Position numbers and translations under genes: made by a program
Notes under the pieces: generated by a model
The model's database searches: none
Seen by the model: the letters and a program-made list of their open reading frames with translations, nothing else
What the model was told of the DNA's origin: nothing
Source of the DNA: Haloprofundus salilacus
Lineage (GTDB): Archaea > Halobacteriota > Halobacteria > Halobacteriales > Haloferacaceae
DNA: 64,000 bases
Direction of reading: 5' to 3'
NCBI RefSeq assembly: GCF_020150815.1
Contig: NZ_CP083723.1
Span: 186,001 to 250,000, forward strand
Shown: positions 5,477 to 19,680 of the stretch, piece by piece
Layout: every line of letters begins with the position of its first letter
Position numbering within the stretch: the first letter of the stretch is position 1

Positions 5477-7117
5477 TTACTCCATGTATCCAAGATCGGC
5501 GAGGCGGTCTTCGACGGAATCAGTCGGCCCGTCGTCTGCCCCACTCATTTCCCGGTATTCTCCTGCAAGTTCGTCCCAATCAACTACTTTATCCGGTTCC
5601 TCGAACGGACCGAGGACTTGCCCATCGGTTTTCGCGTCGAGCGGAAGCCCCAGCGCGGCGGCTACGGTGGGAGCAATATCGTATATCGAAGCACCGTCTT
5701 CCGGATCGACATCAAGCTCACGATTCGAGAGCAGTATCCCTTCTGGCTTGTGGTTTTTGTGCGGATTACGCCGGAACGTGTCGACGATAGAGCCGCTCAC
5801 GTCATACTGGTAGTCGCGAGGAACGAGGAGGATGTCCGGTGCATCTTCGAGGTACTTTCCCTGGTATACCTCTTCTCTCGGGAGTACATCGTCGAACACG
5901 AGCTTTCCGTCGGGGTCACGAATCTTCGAGAGCTCGTCAATCAGCTTCTGGCGGATGTCGTCGTACTCGTCAGTCGTGACTTTGCCATTTGGTTCTCGTC
6001 CCTCAACGTTCAGGTGGACGCCAAGGCTATTGAACAGGAGTTGATAGGCGGTCGAGTTCTCGTGATCGACAATCTGGTTCTGTGCTGCGACGAGTACATC
6101 TTCTGGAAGCAGACGTTCGACGGCTTTGTCGAGTCCGACAGCTCCGAGTCCACGGTGAATCCGTTGAGGGGAGAGGCCAATATGGGTTAGCGCCGATGTA
6201 GTGGCTTCGACGAATAATTTGACTCCGTTAGGGTTCTTGTTATCCGTTTCACCTTTGAGGTCGGCCTTCGCTTGCCGGAAGTACTGTCCCTCTCCGGTGG
6301 TCGTCTTACAGTACCCGTTTTCGGCGAGCCAGGAGTTTACATAGAAAGTCCACTCGTAGTCGCCCATCCCGTGATCGGAAGCGACGAATACGTCTGGGTC
6401 GTCGTCGCCAAGGTCGATGATGTCGCCGACGAACTGGTCAACTTTTTCAAGGACCTGTCGGATTTGGTCTCGGTCGTCGAGATCGTGGAAGATGGAATCG
6501 GTAACCTGGAACTGGACTGCGAGGAGGTCCCAGTCGTATCGTTCGTCGAGGAAGCGAGACATATCTCGGCGATGTCGGGCGACGTCGACGTAGCCCTCAA
6601 CGGCGTTGTCGTCCTTTCCGTACTCCGGATAGATGACGTACTCCCCATACTCCGCCTCGTACTCCTCCCGGAGGTGATCTGGGTAGAACGTGACGTCTTC
6701 GCTCGCGAGGTAGCCCGGAACGATCGCACCGTTTTCGAGTTTCGGGGCCAGGTGGGTAACAGGGTAGTTGACGACGACCGGCGTTAGTCCTTCCGCGTCG
6801 GCTGCTTCGAACAGGTACGGAACGTCAACATCGGGGCGTTCAACGAGTCGCTTGTCGTAGCCCTCACGGGTGAAGAAGTCGAAGACACCGTGTGCGCCCG
6901 GGTTGCGTCCACTGAGGAACGACGGCCAAGCACAGGGAGTCCAAGGCGGATGGGTGCTCGTGAGGTCTGTCGCCGTTCCGTCCTCACGAATGCCCCGTAG
7001 ATTCGACAGCGTGCCGTTCTCGACCCACGGTTCGATTTCGGCCCAGCCTAGACCGTCGAGGCCGATTAAACATATCTCCCTTCCACCATTTATTAAGTTA
7101 TGATTGTGTTCTTCCAT
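5477..7117 (-). CDS. Type I phosphodiesterase / nucleotide pyrophosphatase-like enzyme
   Basis: The protein has 546 residues of the alkaline-phosphatase superfamily. LIGLDGLGWAEIEPW near residue 18 supplies the first metal Asp. WTPCAWPSFLSGRNPG near 60 has Thr at the nucleophile position. DSIFHDLDD near 207 gives the D-x-x-x-H metal pair. ASDHGMGDYEW near 247 gives the second Asp-His, and a late His occurs in NPHKNHKPEG. The pattern matches phosphodiesterase/pyrophosphatase members that cleave nucleotide or sugar phosphodiesters. It is convergent with the operon at 3-5 kb and divergent from the next AP-type gene, with the shared AT-rich gap 7118-7230 as a bidirectional promoter region. The substrate is not known. 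Confidence 0.85.
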   Translation of the reverse strand: MEEHNHNLINGGREICLIGLDGLGWAEIEPWVENGTLSNLRGIREDGTATDLTSTHPPWTPCAWPSFLSGRNPGAHGVFDFFTREGYDKRLVERPDVDVPYLFEAADAEGLTPVVVNYPVTHLAPKLENGAIVPGYLASEDVTFYPDHLREEYEAEYGEYVIYPEYGKDDNAVEGYVDVARHRRDMSRFLDERYDWDLLAVQFQVTDSIFHDLDDRDQIRQVLEKVDQFVGDIIDLGDDDPDVFVASDHGMGDYEWTFYVNSWLAENGYCKTTTGEGQYFRQAKADLKGETDNKNPNGVKLFVEATTSALTHIGLSPQRIHRGLGAVGLDKAVERLLPEDVLVAAQNQIVDHENSTAYQLLFNSLGVHLNVEGREPNGKVTTDEYDDIRQKLIDELSKIRDPDGKLVFDDVLPREEVYQGKYLEDAPDILLVPRDYQYDVSGSIVDTFRRNPHKNHKPEGILLSNRELDVDPEDGASIYDIAPTVAAALGLPLDAKTDGQVLGPFEEPDKVVDWDELAGEYREMSGADDGPTDSVEDRLADLGYME

Positions 7118-10128: not shown

Positions 10129-11229
10129 TTATAACGCACACTTATCCATAATGTGCGCATGAATCGTGGATGTAACAGCTCCCCATGAGTGATTTTCCAT
10201 GATTAACACCCGTCCATCCGTATTGTCAGCAGCCTCCGCCGCGATACGTTCGACGTGGCTGGCGACCTCGTCGTCGGACGTCGACGAAGGAAGCCGAACC
10301 ACACCTGGATACTCGTCGAGAGATTCAAGTCCCTCGTCGTTGAGGACGATTACGGGCTTCCCACAGGAGAGGTACTCGTAAACTTTTATCGGTGACGCGT
10401 ATCGAGAGCTACAGAACGGTCCGAAGCAGACGTCCGCGTCGTTAATGTACTCTGGAACAGTAGCATGGTCGACTCTCCCGACGACGGACACCTCATCGTC
10501 CATTCCGCGTTGCCTGAGGAGTGTCAGAACTTCCTGCTGTCTATCGGTGCTGCCCCCCACGAGGGTGAACTTCACGTCGGCGTTGATCCGATTTACAACG
10601 TCTATCATCCGCTCTATTCCCTGCCACTCTTGGAGTCCACCTACGTAACAGATTCGTAGTGTGTTATCTTCTGTTTGTTCAGAGCCTGTCGGTTCAAACA
10701 GATTGGTATCGACTCCATTTTCGACGACGTGGATGGGTGTGTTTAGACGTTCTATGTCTAGCGTCTTTTTGATACTGTCCGAGACGGCGATCAACAACTC
10801 TGCGCGCGCTCTGCTGTGCGTCCGGATGGCCGCGTACAGCCGTCTCACGAGGTTCTGGTCCGCTTCCGTCTGGGGAAGTCCATTCACCTCGATGATTGTG
10901 TTAACCTGGGGGAGAACGCTCACGATGAGTTTTGATAGATAGGGCGAGTCCCTGGTGTACACGACCACCGGTTCATCGCTCCGCAGCCAAATTGTGAATA
11001 GTAAGAACAGCCCATAGATATCTCGGGCGATCTTGGCGGGGAGGGACGTTCCAAATCCGAGACTCTGTACTGCTCGGTCGTCGTTGTTGAATCCTCTTCC
11101 AACAATGAATTGGGATTCTGCATAGTCTTCACCAGGAAAGTTCTCAATGAACTTCTTCGTGTGGATGCGTCGCCCAAATTGATCCGGATCAGTGAAATCA
11201 ATACCGGGAAAGTATCCTACAAATATCAT
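10129..11229 (-). CDS. Glycosyltransferase family 4
   Basis: The protein has 366 residues. It shows VVENGVDTNLF near residue 162 (donor loop), ICYVGGLQEWQGIERMID near 190, and SPIKVYEYLSCGKPVIV near 300 with the E-x-x-x-x-x-G signature. The N-terminal segment is less standard, lacking the usual glycine-rich loop. It is transcribed in the same direction as the large membrane protein, 48 bp upstream, so they probably form an operon. It adds a sugar to the lipid-linked glycan, with specificity unknown. Confidence 0.85.
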   Translation of the reverse strand: MIFVGYFPGIDFTDPDQFGRRIHTKKFIENFPGEDYAESQFIVGRGFNNDDRAVQSLGFGTSLPAKIARDIYGLFLLFTIWLRSDEPVVVYTRDSPYLSKLIVSVLPQVNTIIEVNGLPQTEADQNLVRRLYAAIRTHSRARAELLIAVSDSIKKTLDIERLNTPIHVVENGVDTNLFEPTGSEQTEDNTLRICYVGGLQEWQGIERMIDVVNRINADVKFTLVGGSTDRQQEVLTLLRQRGMDDEVSVVGRVDHATVPEYINDADVCFGPFCSSRYASPIKVYEYLSCGKPVIVLNDEGLESLDEYPGVVRLPSSTSDDEVASHVERIAAEAADNTDGRVLIMENHSWGAVTSTIHAHIMDKCAL

Positions 11230-11403
11230 TTCGGGCTTTGGAATGGTTGTCTTCGGTTGGTTCCAGTTTTTATATATTCCTTAAATGGGGTTATATTCAT
11301 TACAGTTAGTAGGATTATATTAAACAATGAAAAAATCCACTCATCATGAGTCATTCGAACTATCTGGTTGCGTGTATATTTCATACCGACTCACGTGTCT
11401 TGT

Positions 11404-11473
11404 GAGATTTATATGTGCTGTTCTTTCTGCAGCGTGTGCCGCGAGATTTATATATACTGCTCTTTCTGTACAG
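11404..11473 (+). promoter_or_regulatory. Tandemly duplicated TATA promoter segment
   Basis: GAGATTTATATGTGCTG at 11404-11420 and its near copy GAGATTTATATATACTGC at 11443-11460 are both followed by TCTTTCTG and CAG. The full ~30-bp units differ by few bases and a 2-bp insertion. Each has an archaeal TATA-like TTTATAT core. The second copy ends 3 bp before the ATG at 11477 and places its TATA about 27 bp upstream of that ATG, consistent with a leaderless transcript. Confidence 0.55.
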
Positions 11474-11476
11474 ACT

Positions 11477-12652
11477 ATGACTAAAGTCGGAATTATCACA
11501 TTCCATAATAATGAGAACCGGGGGGCGATTCTACAGGGCTATTCTCTCTGTCGCGCTCTCAAACAGACGCTTTCAGCAAATGTAGACATTATTGAGTATC
11601 GAACTGCTTCTAAAGAACGACTGCGGCGAAATAAGCTCATACTGAATAAACGCCCTTGGACGATTTCGACACGTCTCAAAGATCGTCACATTGTCGAAAA
11701 TTTCATAAATTCAAAATTACCTACGAGCACCAAGTCTCTTGTTACTGATGATCATAAACAAGCTGTAGCATGGATTGAGGAGCAAAATTACGATGTGTTA
11801 GTGACAGGGAGTGACGAGGTCTGGAAAGTCATTTCCGAGGGAAGTGGTGGAGCTTTCTCCCGCTTTTTCCCGAACCGTCCTTTCCCCAACCTCTACCTTC
11901 TTGACCCGGAAATCTCGGCAACAAAGGTAGCATACGCCGCCTCTGCGAATAAAACTGATCTCGATCGCCTTGAGTCAGAAACCAAAAATACGCTTCAAGC
12001 TCACATTTCAGCATATGATTTCGTTAGTGTCCGAGACCGTCATACGGAGAGGTTAGTTAATAGTCTAGGAATTGAGGATGTGCATCGGGTGCCCGATCCG
12101 ACTCTCCTCATCGACCTTCCGAAAGGCGATGCGGCAACAATCCTCACCGAAAATGGAATTGATCTCGACAAACCAATTCTCGGAATTCACAGCCATGAGA
12201 TGTCTCCCTTCGATTCTATCTGTGAGCACTATAGAGAGCGAGGGTACCAAATCGTCGCACCCGCCACGTCGCCGTACGCGGATTTAGAACTCGTCGGAAA
12301 GGTTGATCCTTTCGAATATTTCGCGATGTACGAACACTTCGATATGGTCGTTACAACTAGCCTCCACTCTACGATTTTTAGTCTAAAGAACCGAACTCCA
12401 TTCGTCACAATTGACGTGGATAGCATCTATGCTGAGCTTGAGAGTAAGACTTACTCTCTGCTTGAAGACTTCTCGTTTTCGGAACGCCACATCAACGCCG
12501 TCAACGGGAACTACACCGGACTAATTGACCGAGTCGAAAAACTCGAACGGTCGCTTGACGAGGACCACATCGAAAACTGTATAGAAGAACAACAGGAACG
12601 GGGAATTGAATTCCTTGAACAGATTCAGGTCACCCATGGAGTGCATAACTAA
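11477..12652 (+). CDS. Polysaccharide pyruvyl transferase family protein
   Basis: The protein has 391 residues from the ATG at 11477. That start is preferred over an upstream ATG at 11327 because the upstream part is a duplicated promoter with a Cys-rich, non-protein-like translation. The N-terminus MTKVGIITFHNNENRGAILQ is the standard family start (N-x-G-A strand-loop). A DVLVTGSDEVWKV segment near residue 105 is the G-S-D-x-x-W core, and SLHSTIFSLKNRTPFVTID near 295 is the H-rich C-terminal signature. The family transfers pyruvate from phosphoenolpyruvate to a sugar as a ketal. It heads an operon with the MurB-like enzyme (17-bp overlap) and the flippase. Confidence 0.85.
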   Translation: MTKVGIITFHNNENRGAILQGYSLCRALKQTLSANVDIIEYRTASKERLRRNKLILNKRPWTISTRLKDRHIVENFINSKLPTSTKSLVTDDHKQAVAWIEEQNYDVLVTGSDEVWKVISEGSGGAFSRFFPNRPFPNLYLLDPEISATKVAYAASANKTDLDRLESETKNTLQAHISAYDFVSVRDRHTERLVNSLGIEDVHRVPDPTLLIDLPKGDAATILTENGIDLDKPILGIHSHEMSPFDSICEHYRERGYQIVAPATSPYADLELVGKVDPFEYFAMYEHFDMVVTTSLHSTIFSLKNRTPFVTIDVDSIYAELESKTYSLLEDFSFSERHINAVNGNYTGLIDRVEKLERSLDEDHIENCIEEQQERGIEFLEQIQVTHGVHN

Positions 12653-13481
12653 ACCGCTGGCCGAGCACACGTCGCTCAAGATCGGCGGACCGGCCGAAAT
12701 CGCGATCCCGGAGAGTAAATCTGAGTTAGTTGACCTCCTCACGGAGTGTTACGAGGAGAGTCGCCCGTACCGTATCTTGGGAAACGGGTCGAACCTGCTC
12801 GTCGCCGACAAAGGCGTCGACGAACTGGTAATCAAGATTACGGACGCAAGTACCAACCTGTCGTTCAACGGCAGCCATGCAGATGTCGGTGCCTCCGTGA
12901 TGGTTCCACAATTTATCAACGCATGTATCCAGAAGAATCTGGGCGGTTACGAGTATCTATACTCAGTCCCCGGAACGATTGGTGGTGCGATTTATATGAA
13001 CGCTGGGAGAGGTCCGGCTCACGAGATGACCATCGCCGACTATCTCGTCTCTGTTGAGGTGTTCGCCGAAGGTAGTGTCCGAGAGATTTCTGCCGACAAA
13101 ATGAGCTTCGAACACAGGTACTCATCGTTTCACGATAACAGCGAGTGGGTCATTCTCTCCGCGACGTTCGATCTTCCAACCCAGCCATCTAACGAAGGTC
13201 GCGAGAAGGCCAGAGAACGGATGCAGAAGGTCCGGCGTCGCGAACGATCTAAGCCAAACGCCGGATCCGTATTCAAATCCGGCGCACGGTTTCCCGTTCA
13301 CAAGATTCCACCGAATGGCCTGTCGGTCGGCGACGCCCGGTTCGTCGAACAAAACCGAATTTGTAACGACGGGAACGCGACGTGTCGTGACGTTGAGCGC
13401 TTGATCACTCGCGCGAAGTGGTTCCATCGACTCGTTCCACCGTTTGAGGACCCACAGATCGAATGGGAAATTTGGAAGTGA
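12636..13481 (+). CDS. murB: MurB-like FAD-dependent UDP-sugar enolpyruvyl reductase
   Basis: The protein has 281 residues from the ATG at 12636, chosen because MECITKPLAEHTSLKIGGPA matches the family start. Visible motifs are LGNGSNLLVAD (FAD diphosphate loop), YSVPGTIGGAIYMNAG (FAD/substrate core), MSFEHRYSSF (the position of the active-site Arg), and NAGSVFK (the proton-donating Ser). The C-terminal PQIEWEI segment sits where the catalytic Glu lies in MurB. Bacterial MurB reduces UDP-GlcNAc-enolpyruvate to UDP-MurNAc with NADPH. Haloarchaea have no peptidoglycan, so a lactyl-ether sugar in the surface glycan is a possible product (inference). It overlaps the pyruvyl transferase by 17 bp and precedes the flippase by 21 bp. 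No MurA-like gene is in the window. Confidence 0.85.
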   Translation: MECITKPLAEHTSLKIGGPAEIAIPESKSELVDLLTECYEESRPYRILGNGSNLLVADKGVDELVIKITDASTNLSFNGSHADVGASVMVPQFINACIQKNLGGYEYLYSVPGTIGGAIYMNAGRGPAHEMTIADYLVSVEVFAEGSVREISADKMSFEHRYSSFHDNSEWVILSATFDLPTQPSNEGREKARERMQKVRRRERSKPNAGSVFKSGARFPVHKIPPNGLSVGDARFVEQNRICNDGNATCRDVERLITRAKWFHRLVPPFEDPQIEWEIWK

Positions 13482-13502: not shown

Positions 13503-15014
13503 ATGAGTAGCCGAACCGTCTCTGGAATTATCTCTGTTCTGGGTGGCAAATTCGGCGCGACGTTTCTCACAGCGGCGATTACGCCGCTGTTGGTCCGCGT
13601 CCTCGGAGGCGAACTATACGGACAATATGCGTTCTTGCTTTCGGCGTTCGCAGTGATTACCGTCATTACACGTTCCGGTATCTCGGCTGGAATTCGCAAG
13701 TACATCGCCGAAGACCGCCCTGGCCAAGACTGGGATACGCACGTGTTCGCTTTCTATACCCGTTTGGCAGTTGGCATCGCGGTACTTGTTGGTGTTTGTT
13801 TACTGCTGTTCGGCGTGTACAAGCCGCTCAACAGCCTATTGAGTCCCGCATTCGAGGTCTACTTCGCCTTGCTTGCCGCTATGGTGGTGACGGATCAGTT
13901 GTTCTACGTCACTCGGTATACGCTGATGGGGTTGCATTATGAGCGATATTCAGAGCCTCTCTCGGTCCTACAAACTCTTCTGTATGGAGTTCTCGGCCTC
14001 TCGCTAGCTTACATCGGCTTCGATGTCGTGGGTGTCCTCGCTGGAACGGCGATCTCCTCATTTGTTTGCGCTGTCGTCGCGACGTGGCTGTTGCGAACTC
14101 GCATTGACTTGATGGCGGTATTCAGGCCGCTTCCTCGCAATTTCCCACGGCGTAATCTTTTGAGCTTCAACGCGTTCAACACGGTGTTCATCCTGTTGAC
14201 AATATCGCTCTATAACACCGATATATTGCTCCTTCAGCCACTAGTGGGCAGTCAGCAGACGGGGTTCTATAAAGCCGCGCTCGTCGTCGCCGAATTTTTG
14301 TGGCTTGTCCCCCAGGCGATTCAGATCGTCTTCATCCATTCCTCCTCGAAACTGTGGTCTCAGCAGAGCTATGACGAAATATCCGCGATGGCGAGTCGAG
14401 CGACCCGGTACACGCTCGTCTTTACGACGCTATTGCTGATCGGACTTGCAGCACTCGCAGAGGAGTTCATGCAATTGTACTTCGGCACAGAGTTTGACGC
14501 GGCCGTCACGCCGCTGCTGTTGTTACTCCCTGGTGTCCTCGGATTCGCGCTCGCTCGCCCAATCTTCGCGATCGGGCAGGGCAAGGGCGACCTCCGGGTG
14601 CTCATCTTTGCAACTGGAACCGCCGCCATTATTAACCTCGTCTTGAACCTCTCGCTCATCCCACGCTACGGAATGGCTGGTGCGGCGATTGCGACGAGTG
14701 TCGGTTATGGCTCAATGATCATATTCCACGGGGCCGTCGCTCGCCGAATCGGATACAATCCCTTCGGCGACCTTCGGCTGCTTTCGTTCACAGTAACGGC
14801 TGGTCTGTCCGCCGTCGCAATCGTAGGTCTCGCGACCATGATTGAATCGACGTTTGTGTCGCTCGTGGTCGTTCCACCGGTCGGATTCGTAATCTACGCA
14901 ACCCTCGCGTTACGAACCCGTGTTATCGATGCCGACGAGGCTATCTCACTTCTCGAGCAGGCGCCCGCGCCGCTTTCGGGTTGGTCGATTACGGCCGTTC
15001 GCCACCTCACATAA
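13503..15014 (+). CDS. Wzx-type oligosaccharide flippase (MOP superfamily)
   Basis: The protein has 503 residues with about twelve to fourteen hydrophobic helices across its length. It starts ISVLGGKFGATFLTAAITPL, the usual first helix of polysaccharide flippases, followed by VLGGELYGQYAFLLSAF. A second-half helix pair around GMAGAAIATSVGYG matches the RYGxxGAAxAT hallmark of the family. It moves a lipid-linked oligosaccharide across the cytoplasmic membrane, as AglR is proposed to do in Haloferax. It is the last gene of the pyruvyl transferase / MurB-like / flippase operon, so the modified glycan is probably its cargo. Confidence 0.88.
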   Translation: MSSRTVSGIISVLGGKFGATFLTAAITPLLVRVLGGELYGQYAFLLSAFAVITVITRSGISAGIRKYIAEDRPGQDWDTHVFAFYTRLAVGIAVLVGVCLLLFGVYKPLNSLLSPAFEVYFALLAAMVVTDQLFYVTRYTLMGLHYERYSEPLSVLQTLLYGVLGLSLAYIGFDVVGVLAGTAISSFVCAVVATWLLRTRIDLMAVFRPLPRNFPRRNLLSFNAFNTVFILLTISLYNTDILLLQPLVGSQQTGFYKAALVVAEFLWLVPQAIQIVFIHSSSKLWSQQSYDEISAMASRATRYTLVFTTLLLIGLAALAEEFMQLYFGTEFDAAVTPLLLLLPGVLGFALARPIFAIGQGKGDLRVLIFATGTAAIINLVLNLSLIPRYGMAGAAIATSVGYGSMIIFHGAVARRIGYNPFGDLRLLSFTVTAGLSAVAIVGLATMIESTFVSLVVVPPVGFVIYATLALRTRVIDADEAISLLEQAPAPLSGWSITAVRHLT

Positions 15015-15320: not shown

Positions 15321-16571
15321 TCATTCTGCCACCGAACTGAGGAAGAACGATCCAAAGATCACCTGAATCCCGAGGATAATCGCGGTGAATGCCACGATAT
15401 TGGCTTCTGCAACAGGCACTGTGGCAAAGCCGCTTCCAAACCATCGCCCAATAACGAGCGCTGCATATGCTGCACCGACTCCAAAGACGCCAAGCCCAAT
15501 CGTAGCTCCACGCTCGAGACTGACCCGCTGCGTCAACCACGTTGTGAACGGATCATTCGCCTTCTGAATTGGATCGCTTGCAACTGTCGCAAACGCTCCG
15601 AGACTCGCTACCTGGTAACCAACCAACGTCAGCAAACTTCCGGCAATCATCGAATTGAGACCCAACGAGAACGGACCAACCGGGACGCTCGTGTATGCAA
15701 GCCCCATCACGAGCATCCCAACCACTCCAAGAACCATCCCTGGAATCGAGAACAGATGGCCCGGGGCATTCACGAGCATAAACTTCACGTGCCGCCAGCC
15801 ATCCGAGAAACTCTCGAGGGTTGCCTCACCCTCACGAGGATGGTACGTAATCGGGATTTCTTCGATAGTCAGGTCCTTCGCACCAGCTTCCATGATCATC
15901 TCGGAGGCAAACTCCATGCCAGTGGATTTGAGATCCATCGTCTCAAGCGCTTCTCGAGAGAAGACGCGCATTCCACTGTGGGCGTCGCTGACGCCAGCAC
16001 GATAGAAGACATTGAGGAATTTCGTCAGCAACGGATTGCCAATATGCTGGTGAAGCTTCGGCATCGACCCAGGGAGAATCTCTCCCTCAAGACGGCTTCC
16101 CATGGCCATATCAGCGTCACCGTTCGCCACGAGTTCGTACAACTTCGGCAACTCCTCGAAGTCGTACGTACAATCTGCATCCCCAATAGCAATGTAGTCG
16201 CCACGGGCACGCTCGAAGGCGTACATGTACGCATAGCCGTATCCCGGCTTATCTGGGACGACGACACGTGCGCCGAGTGATTCTGCAATCTCGGGCGTTC
16301 GATCAGTCGAACTATCACTGACGACGATCTCGCCAGTCATCTCCATCTCGACGAGCGCGTTTTTGATTCGACGAATGCACTCTGCAATGCCTTGCTCTTC
16401 GTTGAGCGTCGGCATAACAATAGTTAGCTCTGGAGGCTGGGCGCTATCTTCGTCGACGAGATATTTGTCGCCTGGGTGGTCTCCTTCGTATGCGGTGCGT
16501 CCGTTGGAGGCGTACTGTGCGGCTCCGTTTGAATTTTCGAGTAAGTTGCTGTTTGGTGTGTCGGTTGACAT
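15321..16571 (-). CDS. GT2 glycosyltransferase with C-terminal membrane domain
   Basis: The protein has 416 residues from the ATG at 16571, and a further in-frame ATG lies 48 bp upstream. After a ~50-residue polar N-terminus comes LTIVMPTLNEEQGIAECIRR (GT-A N-terminus), then VSDSSTDRTPEIAESLGA, GDYIAIGDADCTYD with the DAD metal site near residue 140, and HSGMRVFSREAL near 215. The C-terminal ~140 residues form about four hydrophobic helices. This is the layout of dolichyl-phosphate hexose synthases with a membrane tail, so it probably charges dolichyl phosphate with a hexose for the glycan pathway. It is convergent with the flippase operon. Confidence 0.88.
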   Translation of the reverse strand: MSTDTPNSNLLENSNGAAQYASNGRTAYEGDHPGDKYLVDEDSAQPPELTIVMPTLNEEQGIAECIRRIKNALVEMEMTGEIVVSDSSTDRTPEIAESLGARVVVPDKPGYGYAYMYAFERARGDYIAIGDADCTYDFEELPKLYELVANGDADMAMGSRLEGEILPGSMPKLHQHIGNPLLTKFLNVFYRAGVSDAHSGMRVFSREALETMDLKSTGMEFASEMIMEAGAKDLTIEEIPITYHPREGEATLESFSDGWRHVKFMLVNAPGHLFSIPGMVLGVVGMLVMGLAYTSVPVGPFSLGLNSMIAGSLLTLVGYQVASLGAFATVASDPIQKANDPFTTWLTQRVSLERGATIGLGVFGVGAAYAALVIGRWFGSGFATVPVAEANIVAFTAIILGIQVIFGSFFLSSVAE

Positions 16572-16895
16572 TGTACCGTGATTTTTCCCTCTGCGGCGGT
16601 GAGACAGCGTATCACACACCGACTTGCGTAAGCGAAACCGAAATTAACTCTCACTTCAGTTATCTGCTTTCAAGAGGTTCTCGTTACCACGCCTACATAA
16701 TACTTGCTATCGAAATGATATTCTGAGAAGTCTGTAGTGTCTAGCATTAGAAATTCGCCTAAGAGTACCGAAATGAACACACTCTAGTTTATATACATGT
16801 GCGACAAGGAGTGGTCAAAACCACACCTTCACCAAGGGTATATCAGAGACTTGAACACGGAAATCAAGAAGAGAACGAATTGGGATAAGCCTCGG
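16572..16895. other. Upstream gap of the GT2 gene
   Basis: This is non-coding as far as I can see. It contains a TTTATATACATG string near 16790 and an ATAATACTTGC stretch near 16698 that could be TATA elements. Neither can be tied to a gene with confidence. Confidence 0.3.
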
Positions 16896-18456: not shown

Positions 18457-18657
18457 AGAGAAGATGACTCCGTTTGCGATAATCACTATGAGTTGCCTAC
18501 AAGCGTCCCAAGCGCTTAGCCCTCACATAATCACCCAGGTAGCGGCCGAACTGTCAACTCTCAGCCGGCGATCTGGGCCTATACAGGCACATGACGTATA
18601 GAGAGAAATGTCGCCCACTTAGAAAAACAAATGCCCAAGCGAAAACATGGCAGTGAT

Positions 18658-19680
18658 ATGCAAGCAATTGTACTCGCAGGAGGGTATGCAACCCGCCTCT
18701 GGCCACTTACCAAAGACCGCCCGAAGATGCTCCTTCCCGTCGGTGAAACGACGGTCATCGACGAGATACTCGCTGACCTCGAAGGCGACGAGCGAGTTTC
18801 TGATGTCTTCATTAGTACGAACGAACGTTTCGCACCGACCTTCGAGACACATATCGAAGAATCCGACTTCGAGAAACCGCAGCTCTCCGTCGAGGAAACC
18901 GTTGAAGAAGACGAGAAGTTCGGTGTCGTCGGCGCACTCACCCAACTGATTGAACGTGAAGGCCTCGACGAAAACGACGAAGGTCTCCTCGTCGTTGCTG
19001 GCGACAACCTCTTTAGCTTCAACCTCTCGTCGTTCGTCGACGAATTCAAAGAAAACGAGGCACCGACGCTCGTCGCCTACGATGTCGAGTCCCGAGAGAA
19101 GGCGAAAGCGTACGGCCTCGTCGAACTCGACGGTGACCGTGTCGTCAACTTCCAAGAAAAGCCCGAAGATCCAAAGAGTACGCTTGTCTCGATTGCCTGT
19201 TATGCCTTCCCCGCAGACGTCCTCTCACAGTTCGACGAGTACCTTGCAGGCGACAACAACCCAGATGAACCTGGTTGGTTCCTTCAGTGGTTGCAGGCTC
19301 GCCAAGCCGTCCACGCGTTCACATTCAGTGGTGCGTGGTTCGACATCGGAACAGCAGTCGGGTATCTCGAAGCCGTCGACTGGGCACTTGGCGGCGAACC
19401 ACTCATCGCCGATGACGCCATAGTCGAATCGTCGCATCTCGAAGGCAGCGTACAGGTGCTTTCTGGCGCGACAGTGGCCGATTCGACCCTCTCGAGGTCG
19501 GTTGTGTTCCCGGAGGCTACGATCTCAAATGCGACGATCCACGATTCAGTCATCGATACCGAAGCGGAAATCGAGAACCTCGAATTATCCAAGAGCGTGA
19601 TCGGGCCCTACTCACAGATCACCACTGAATCAACTGAAAAGAGGTCTGACGACCAAGAGACAGAGGCTGTGACAAAATAG
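18658..19680 (+). CDS. Sugar-1-phosphate nucleotidyltransferase with beta-helix tail
   Basis: The protein has 340 residues from the ATG at 18658, where MQAIVLAGGYATRLWPLTKD begins the family pattern (upstream ATG 18631 is possible). GYATRLWPLTKDRPKMLLPV is the pyrophosphorylase signature, VVAGDNLF near residue 120 is the metal Asp site, and NFQEKPEDP near 173 follows it. Residues ~255-320 contain hexapeptide-like SxxxGS/AT repeats (left-handed beta helix). It makes an NDP-sugar from a sugar-1-phosphate and NTP. The nucleotide and sugar are unknown. It lies beside an AglF-like enzyme of simpler architecture. Confidence 0.85.
   Translation: MQAIVLAGGYATRLWPLTKDRPKMLLPVGETTVIDEILADLEGDERVSDVFISTNERFAPTFETHIEESDFEKPQLSVEETVEEDEKFGVVGALTQLIEREGLDENDEGLLVVAGDNLFSFNLSSFVDEFKENEAPTLVAYDVESREKAKAYGLVELDGDRVVNFQEKPEDPKSTLVSIACYAFPADVLSQFDEYLAGDNNPDEPGWFLQWLQARQAVHAFTFSGAWFDIGTAVGYLEAVDWALGGEPLIADDAIVESSHLEGSVQVLSGATVADSTLSRSVVFPEATISNATIHDSVIDTEAEIENLELSKSVIGPYSQITTESTEKRSDDQETEAVTK

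Follow-up and report, generated by a model that had tools for sequence, protein, structure and literature searches.

A MurB-like flavoprotein beside a polysaccharide pyruvyl transferase: a candidate lactyl-ether cassette for surface glycans of haloarchaea

The presence of a MurB-like gene in Haloprofundus salilacus, a haloarchaeon expected to lack a peptidoglycan pathway, raises the questions of what such an enzyme would reduce and where its enolpyruvyl substrate would come from. A preliminary description of this locus, which lies in a 64,000-nucleotide stretch of contig NZ_CP083723.1 (hereafter the window), had proposed a lactyl-ether or reduced enolpyruvyl sugar in the surface glycan as the product and had attributed the substrate either to another source or to a novel reaction. 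The reading favoured here, to which we assign a probability of about three in four, is that three adjacent genes constitute a mobile cassette predicted from sequence to add a lactic acid ether (1-carboxyethyl, muramic-type) to one of the sugars in a lipid-linked surface glycan, the successive steps being those of a polysaccharide pyruvyl transferase (PSPT), the MurB-like protein and a flippase (Table 1).

Table 1. Features of the window and PSPT-reductase fusions in bacterial genomes
Feature	Location	Strand	Basis or remark
Group 1 glycosyltransferase	10129..11229	-	Local glycan locus; outside the cassette, not common to other loci
Polysaccharide pyruvyl transferase (PSPT, PF04230), candidate enolpyruvyl-ether-forming PEP transferase	11477..12652	+	Pfam E=4.3e-30
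Overlap of PSPT 3' end and MurB-like start, 17 bp	12636..12652	+	PSPT stop at 12652
MurB-like FAD-dependent reductase (candidate enolpyruvyl-ether to lactyl-ether reductase)	12636..13481	+	281 aa; FAD_binding_4, NCBIfam murB, AF2 model, R161/S211/E276
Flippase (Polysacc_synt / Polysacc_synt_3), third gene of the conserved cassette	13503..15014	+	Pfam E=3.3e-16
GT2 glycosyltransferase	15321..16619	-	Glycan-locus flank, outside the cassette
Sugar-phosphate nucleotidyltransferase (NTP_transferase)	18631..19680	+	Glycan-locus context
PSPT-FAD_binding_4-MurB_C fusion, 845 aa	Paracoccus aestuarii plasmid pAES7 (L091:2378-4915)		Domain matches
PSPT-nitroreductase fusion	Gemmobacter fulvus (L096:4875-7490)		C-terminal domain is a nitroreductase
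PSPT-nitroreductase fusion	Paracoccus alcaliphilus (L130:3281-5830)		Domain matches

The gene arrangement on which the preliminary description was built is real in each of its parts: the MurB-like gene is an exact open reading frame, the PSPT stop codon lies within it to give the overlap, and the flippase follows downstream. The ATG at 11477 fits best as the PSPT start (the mechanical open reading frame begins at 11327), and PSPT orthologues in six other haloarchaea, 49-56% identical, align from the Met at that position. Translational coupling from the PSPT to the MurB-like gene is likely, and overlaps of the two genes recur elsewhere (17 bp in L013 and L015, 20 bp in L012 and 4 bp in L014).

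The MurB-like protein of the window (P0001) contains an FAD_binding_4 domain (Pfam E=1.2e-15), and all 13 matches in a PDB sequence search were MurB, the best at E=2.5e-30. NCBIfam murB models reach E=2e-52 on this protein and every curated MurB cut-off is missed, with TIGR00179 scoring 127 bits (E=8e-37) against a cut-off of 144.5 and NF010480 scoring 177.9 bits against 259; the Pfam MurB_C model (PF02873), at 24.2 bits, remains under its gathering score of 27. An AlphaFold2 model built with 32 relatives as input has a mean pLDDT of 93.3 and supersedes an earlier model from 6 sequences (pLDDT 67.9). Its top 18 structural matches are all MurB, with type-II enzymes first (4pyt, TM 0.88; 1hsk, 0.86), and TM values to type-II MurB structures lie between 0.82 and 0.88. 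With sequence, profile and structure searches concordant, P0001 is a MurB homologue with a predicted type-II MurB fold. It shares with the type-II enzymes (4pyt, 1hsk, 2gqt) the fold, the FAD domain, the catalytic Arg, Ser and Glu and the proposed enolpyruvyl-to-lactyl reduction, but, as judged from its sequence, it is not MurB proper: it falls below the curated cut-offs, has lost the Asn of the FKNP motif, belongs to a separate clade and is partnered by a PSPT instead of MurA.

In MurB, an arginine and a glutamate hold the enolpyruvyl carboxylate, a serine acts as proton donor and an asparagine helps to hold the nucleotide-sugar. The active-site Arg, Ser and Glu contexts noted in the preliminary description are borne out by alignment to the MurB of an E. 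coli K-12 record, in which R161 of P0001 corresponds to R159, S211 to S229 and E276 to E325. The last correspondence was read by eye and anchored on the final [IV]-W motif common to bacterial relatives, the automatic alignment being gapped at the C-terminus. Glu276 is invariant in 27 relatives and R161 is conserved in no fewer than 90%; at position 211 the wider family has either Ser or Thr, several bacterial members having Thr as the proton donor. The sequence FKSG replaces FKNP, removing the equivalent of E. coli N233; the motif is likewise lost in the PSPT-linked relatives and is kept in E. coli MurB and in the MurB of one other haloarchaeal locus (L017). With the catalytic Arg, Ser and Glu retained and the FKNP Asn lost, the enolpyruvyl chemistry looks to have been kept in P0001 and the remainder of the substrate to have changed.

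When P0001 was searched against 391 Halobacteria genomes, nine matched, comprising six true relatives, one remnant, one canonical MurB (G034) and one unrelated protein. One of the true relatives (G271) is frameshifted near its end, and the remnant (G194, L018:9143-9427) lies between a PSPT and a flippase. A weak match in G131 was rejected as an unrelated FAD-linked oxidase. An independent search of the 391 haloarchaeal genomes with the PSPT (threshold E<=1e-30) matched eight, seven with an intact gene and one with a pseudogene, and the seven intact PSPTs occur in the same seven genomes that carry the MurB-like gene or its remnant, the two being adjacent in every case. Clustering of open reading frames around these seven loci recovered PSPT and flippase at 7/7 and the MurB-like gene at six, with the remnant at the seventh; the flippase copies at all six other loci are 59-70% identical to that of the window. 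The remaining genes vary, and none is common to more than a few loci. Even where the MurB-like gene lies on the opposite strand (G059), PSPT, MurB-like gene and flippase remain together. Carriers span four families, and the four sampled congeners of the window's species are without the cassette, a patchiness that a mobile glycan cassette would be expected to show. Among the named carriers are Natrinema pellirubrum DSM 15624, with the cassette on plasmid pNATPE01 (NATPE_RS21585-RS18575), Natronorubrum texcoconense and a Halostagnicola sp. In a strict survey, the clade was absent from the other Halobacteriota sampled. The PSPT pseudogene (G260, L057) is a fragment with stop codons, indicative of a decaying cassette, and the G194 locus is likewise decaying.

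These losses bear on the possibility that the MurB-like protein was acquired as a bacterial flavoprotein and is now enzymatically inactive, or serves only as a structural partner of PSPT. The remnant in G194 and the frameshift in G271 imply that the gene is dispensable in places, whereas the active-site residues are kept in haloarchaeal copies that are 48-69% identical to P0001 as well as in distant bacterial relatives, the invariant glutamate among them, and this reading is accordingly the least probable of those considered.

The preliminary description had found no MurA-like gene in the window, and this holds for the whole genome (99.7% complete), where AroA is the one member of the EPSP/MurA family. 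MurA is absent from 390 of the 391 haloarchaea: the single exception (G034) has a MurA that scores 930 bits to itself; in the other haloarchaea no score exceeds 64 bits, a level that fits AroA. An alternative in which the MurB-like protein produces genuine UDP-MurNAc, or the lactyl ether of a different UDP-sugar, using enolpyruvyl-UDP-GlcNAc from AroA or an unseen MurA as a relic of a murein-like pathway, would accord with the MurB homology and fold and with the MurA-MurB pair of G034. It is nevertheless very improbable in view of the solitary AroA in the window genome, the near-complete lack of MurA in haloarchaea and the position of P0001 under all NCBIfam MurB cut-offs and outside the canonical clade. 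Since the substrate-loop Asn is gone and there is no MurA, the acceptor is probably not UDP-GlcNAc.

The exceptional G034 locus (L017:3846-6006, contig C38) offers a comparison of its own. There, within a glycan locus, a MurA homologue scoring 355-369 bits to MurA models and keeping the GGC-IG loop overlaps a canonical MurB that scores above the family cut-off. A MurA-MurB pair also occurs in a plasmid glycan island of Haematobacter massiliensis (pOT1-6, L094:2596-4939), which suggests that a bacterial exopolysaccharide contains muramic-type sugars. Both pairs resemble the cassette in combining an enolpyruvyl transferase with MurB inside a polysaccharide locus, and differ from it in that the transferase is MurA, with the EPSP fold, and the MurB is annotated or scores as canonical. 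The existence in glycan loci of parallel pairs, MurA with MurB and PSPT with the MurB-like protein, points to PSPT taking the role of MurA in the cassette.

Relatives in bacteria were retrieved by a two-peptide pattern scan built on the haloarchaeal alignment (the same scan with P0001 alone gave no matches), which yielded, as a sample rather than a census, 26 loci from Bacillota, Bacteroidota, Planctomycetota, Campylobacterota and Peregrinibacteria. At 24 of them a PSPT is found no more than about 4 kb away, overlapping the MurB-like gene or within about 120 bp of it at 13 and nearby yet not immediately adjacent at 11; the other two loci are at contig edges. Most of the bacterial host genomes searched contain a second, canonical murB elsewhere, and no PSPT was found within 1.5 kb of the canonical gene in these genomes (0/13). 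In a maximum-likelihood tree, a branch with support of 100/99 divides 30 PSPT-linked MurB-like proteins (P0001 and 29 others) from 14 canonical MurBs, and the six haloarchaeal proteins form one group. Profile scores are correspondingly bimodal, at least 283 bits versus at most 196 bits, most of the positives having gone into the profile. In strict surveys of Clostridia and Bacteroidia, the clade proved rare. Plasmid-borne genes annotated as MurB in Stenotrophomonas and Lysinibacillus were set aside as lying outside glycan loci. The MurB-like gene is therefore a member of a widespread, patchily distributed bacterial paralogue clade and not peculiar to haloarchaea, and the occurrence of a MurB-like protein in a murein-less organism becomes a consequence of the glycan cassette rather than its essence. 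The lactyl ether put forward in the preliminary description persists as the best-supported candidate product, with the catalytic residues kept and no MurA in the genome.

Further indications come from the company kept by related PSPTs. Besides the PSPT-MurB fusion of Paracoccus aestuarii, two PSPT-nitroreductase fusions were found, and the PSPT half of the Gemmobacter fulvus fusion is closely related to that of P. aestuarii (branches of 0.012 and 0.12). All three fusions sit on alphaproteobacterial plasmids. Within Lactobacillaceae, and within one replicon cluster, an L. brevis plasmid carries PSPT-flippase-MurB where an L. plantarum plasmid carries PSPT-flippase-nitroreductase, and an E. coli plasmid has a nitroreductase-PSPT pair. 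It is difficult to see why reductases of unrelated families should occupy one slot beside related PSPTs if their substrate were anything other than the product of PSPT. The overlapping PSPT, which the preliminary description had treated as a mere neighbour, consequently becomes the candidate source of the substrate, on the strength of its strict co-occurrence with the MurB-like gene, the bacterial fusion and the relatives beside other reductases, including that of the E. coli O124/O164 cluster considered below; with PSPT as the enolpyruvyl source, the missing substrate would be supplied without MurA.

In the proposed mechanism, PSPT would first move the three-carbon unit of PEP onto one sugar hydroxyl, leaving an enolpyruvyl ether without ketal closure. 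With NAD(P)H as its reductant, the MurB-like flavoenzyme would then give a hydride to the enolpyruvyl group to form the lactyl ether, with R161 and E276 expected to hold that group and S211 to act as proton donor. Finally, the flippase, whose participation is suggested by its strict co-conservation, would move the decorated lipid-linked glycan outward. A ketal has no C=C bond for hydride addition of the MurB type, so the PSPT product should be an enol ether if the MurB-like protein acts on it. The characterised PSPTs surveyed in PMC6801904 and PMC6030368 form ketals, which lends some weight to a different explanation: that the PSPT product is a normal pyruvate ketal and that the MurB-like protein acts as reductase on another intermediate of the same glycan pathway, such as a keto- or unsaturated sugar, the loss of the FKNP Asn indicating in any case a substrate other than that of MurB. 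Such an arrangement is unlikely, as the full enolpyruvyl-reducing set of Arg, Ser (or Thr) and Glu is kept, PSPT and the MurB-like protein are fused in Paracoccus, unrelated flavin reductases fill the same slot beside related PSPTs, and one reductase-linked PSPT belongs to the O124/O164 cluster, which has been associated with a lactyl-ether sugar.

The window PSPT shares Pfam family PF04230 and a presumed PEP donor with the ketal-forming enzymes CsaB, WcaK and Pvg1p, but is coupled to a reductase and scores only 28.3 bits on the CsaB model TIGR03609, far under the cut-off of 213.1. At the position of the WcaK R-L-H motif, most MurB-linked PSPTs have S-x-H or a similar non-Arg variant. The window PSPT has SLHS there and was placed away from WcaK, a placement to be read with a single long-branch outgroup and with four linked bacterial PSPTs that keep Arg; on account of these four, S-x-H versus R-x-H was dropped as a diagnostic rule for enolpyruvyl-forming PSPTs. 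A PDB search with the PSPT alignment gave chance matches only, and because sequence searching reveals no solved structure of a PSPT, the reaction outcome cannot be read from the residues.

The window locus, a glycan locus with coupled genes for a PSPT, a reductase and a flippase, has a close parallel in the E. coli O124/O164 O-antigen cluster, found in a PSPT search of E. coli genomes and consisting of a flippase, an FrhB_FdhB-type protein and a PSPT. In a quick tree with a long outgroup branch, its PSPT is placed with those linked to MurB-like or nitroreductase proteins, grouping with the latter and away from WcaK; by contrast with the haloarchaeal cassette, the reductase slot holds no MurB relative and the product is a bacterial O-antigen. 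We assume that the E. coli O124 O-antigen shares the structure of that of S. dysenteriae type 3. The sugar 4-O-[(R)-1-carboxyethyl]-D-glucose has been reported in a Shigella dysenteriae O-antigen (PMC10609480), and a title cited in PMC5643014 assigns glucolactilic acid in S. boydii type 17 to "two new genes", this title being the link between those genes and the O124/O164 pair. A lactyl-ether module of PSPT plus reductase is already known from an enterobacterial O-antigen, and the candidate variant described here differs in its MurB-clade reductase and its occurrence in Archaea; the open literature, as distinct from subscription journals, was searched for haloarchaeal MurB, for haloarchaeal PSPT and for the two proteins together, and describes no such pairing. 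Among five complete genomes whose O124/O164 clusters are otherwise near-identical (L133 / L134), three have a disrupted PSPT gene and two an intact one, and this disruption might explain an O124/O164 structural difference.

A broader proposition, which we favour with somewhat less assurance than the cassette itself, is that PSPT represents a MurA-independent enolpyruvyl transferase whose product is completed by a MurB paralogue to a muramic-like lactyl ether on an archaeal surface glycan, providing a second, non-homologous route to muramic acid chemistry in which MurB-like, nitroreductase and FrhB-type proteins may substitute for one another in the reductase slot. Were this so, muramic-type lactyl ethers would be made in Archaea without MurA, and capsule-locus genes annotated as "FAD-binding protein", "murB" or "polysaccharide pyruvyl transferase" would gain a common testable function, a PSPT gene beside a flavin reductase predicting a lactyl ether over a pyruvate ketal. 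The Klebsiella capsules K22 and K37 presumably carry 1-carboxyethyl ethers. A lactyl-ether reading may also explain the puzzle of capsule types K8, K22, K37 and K66, which have PSPT genes without pyruvylation (PMC4616057).

With regard to the wider setting of the locus, G+C content is 48-56% between positions 6000 and 48000 of the window, a part that includes the glycan region, and 61-68% between 48000 and 64000, the low-G+C left part being as in an acquired island. A TATA-like direct repeat of 26 nt, with its two copies 39 nt apart (GAGATTTATAT at 11404-11429 and CTGYTCTTTCTG at 11443-11468), lies just before the PSPT start codon and possibly reflects a promoter duplication.
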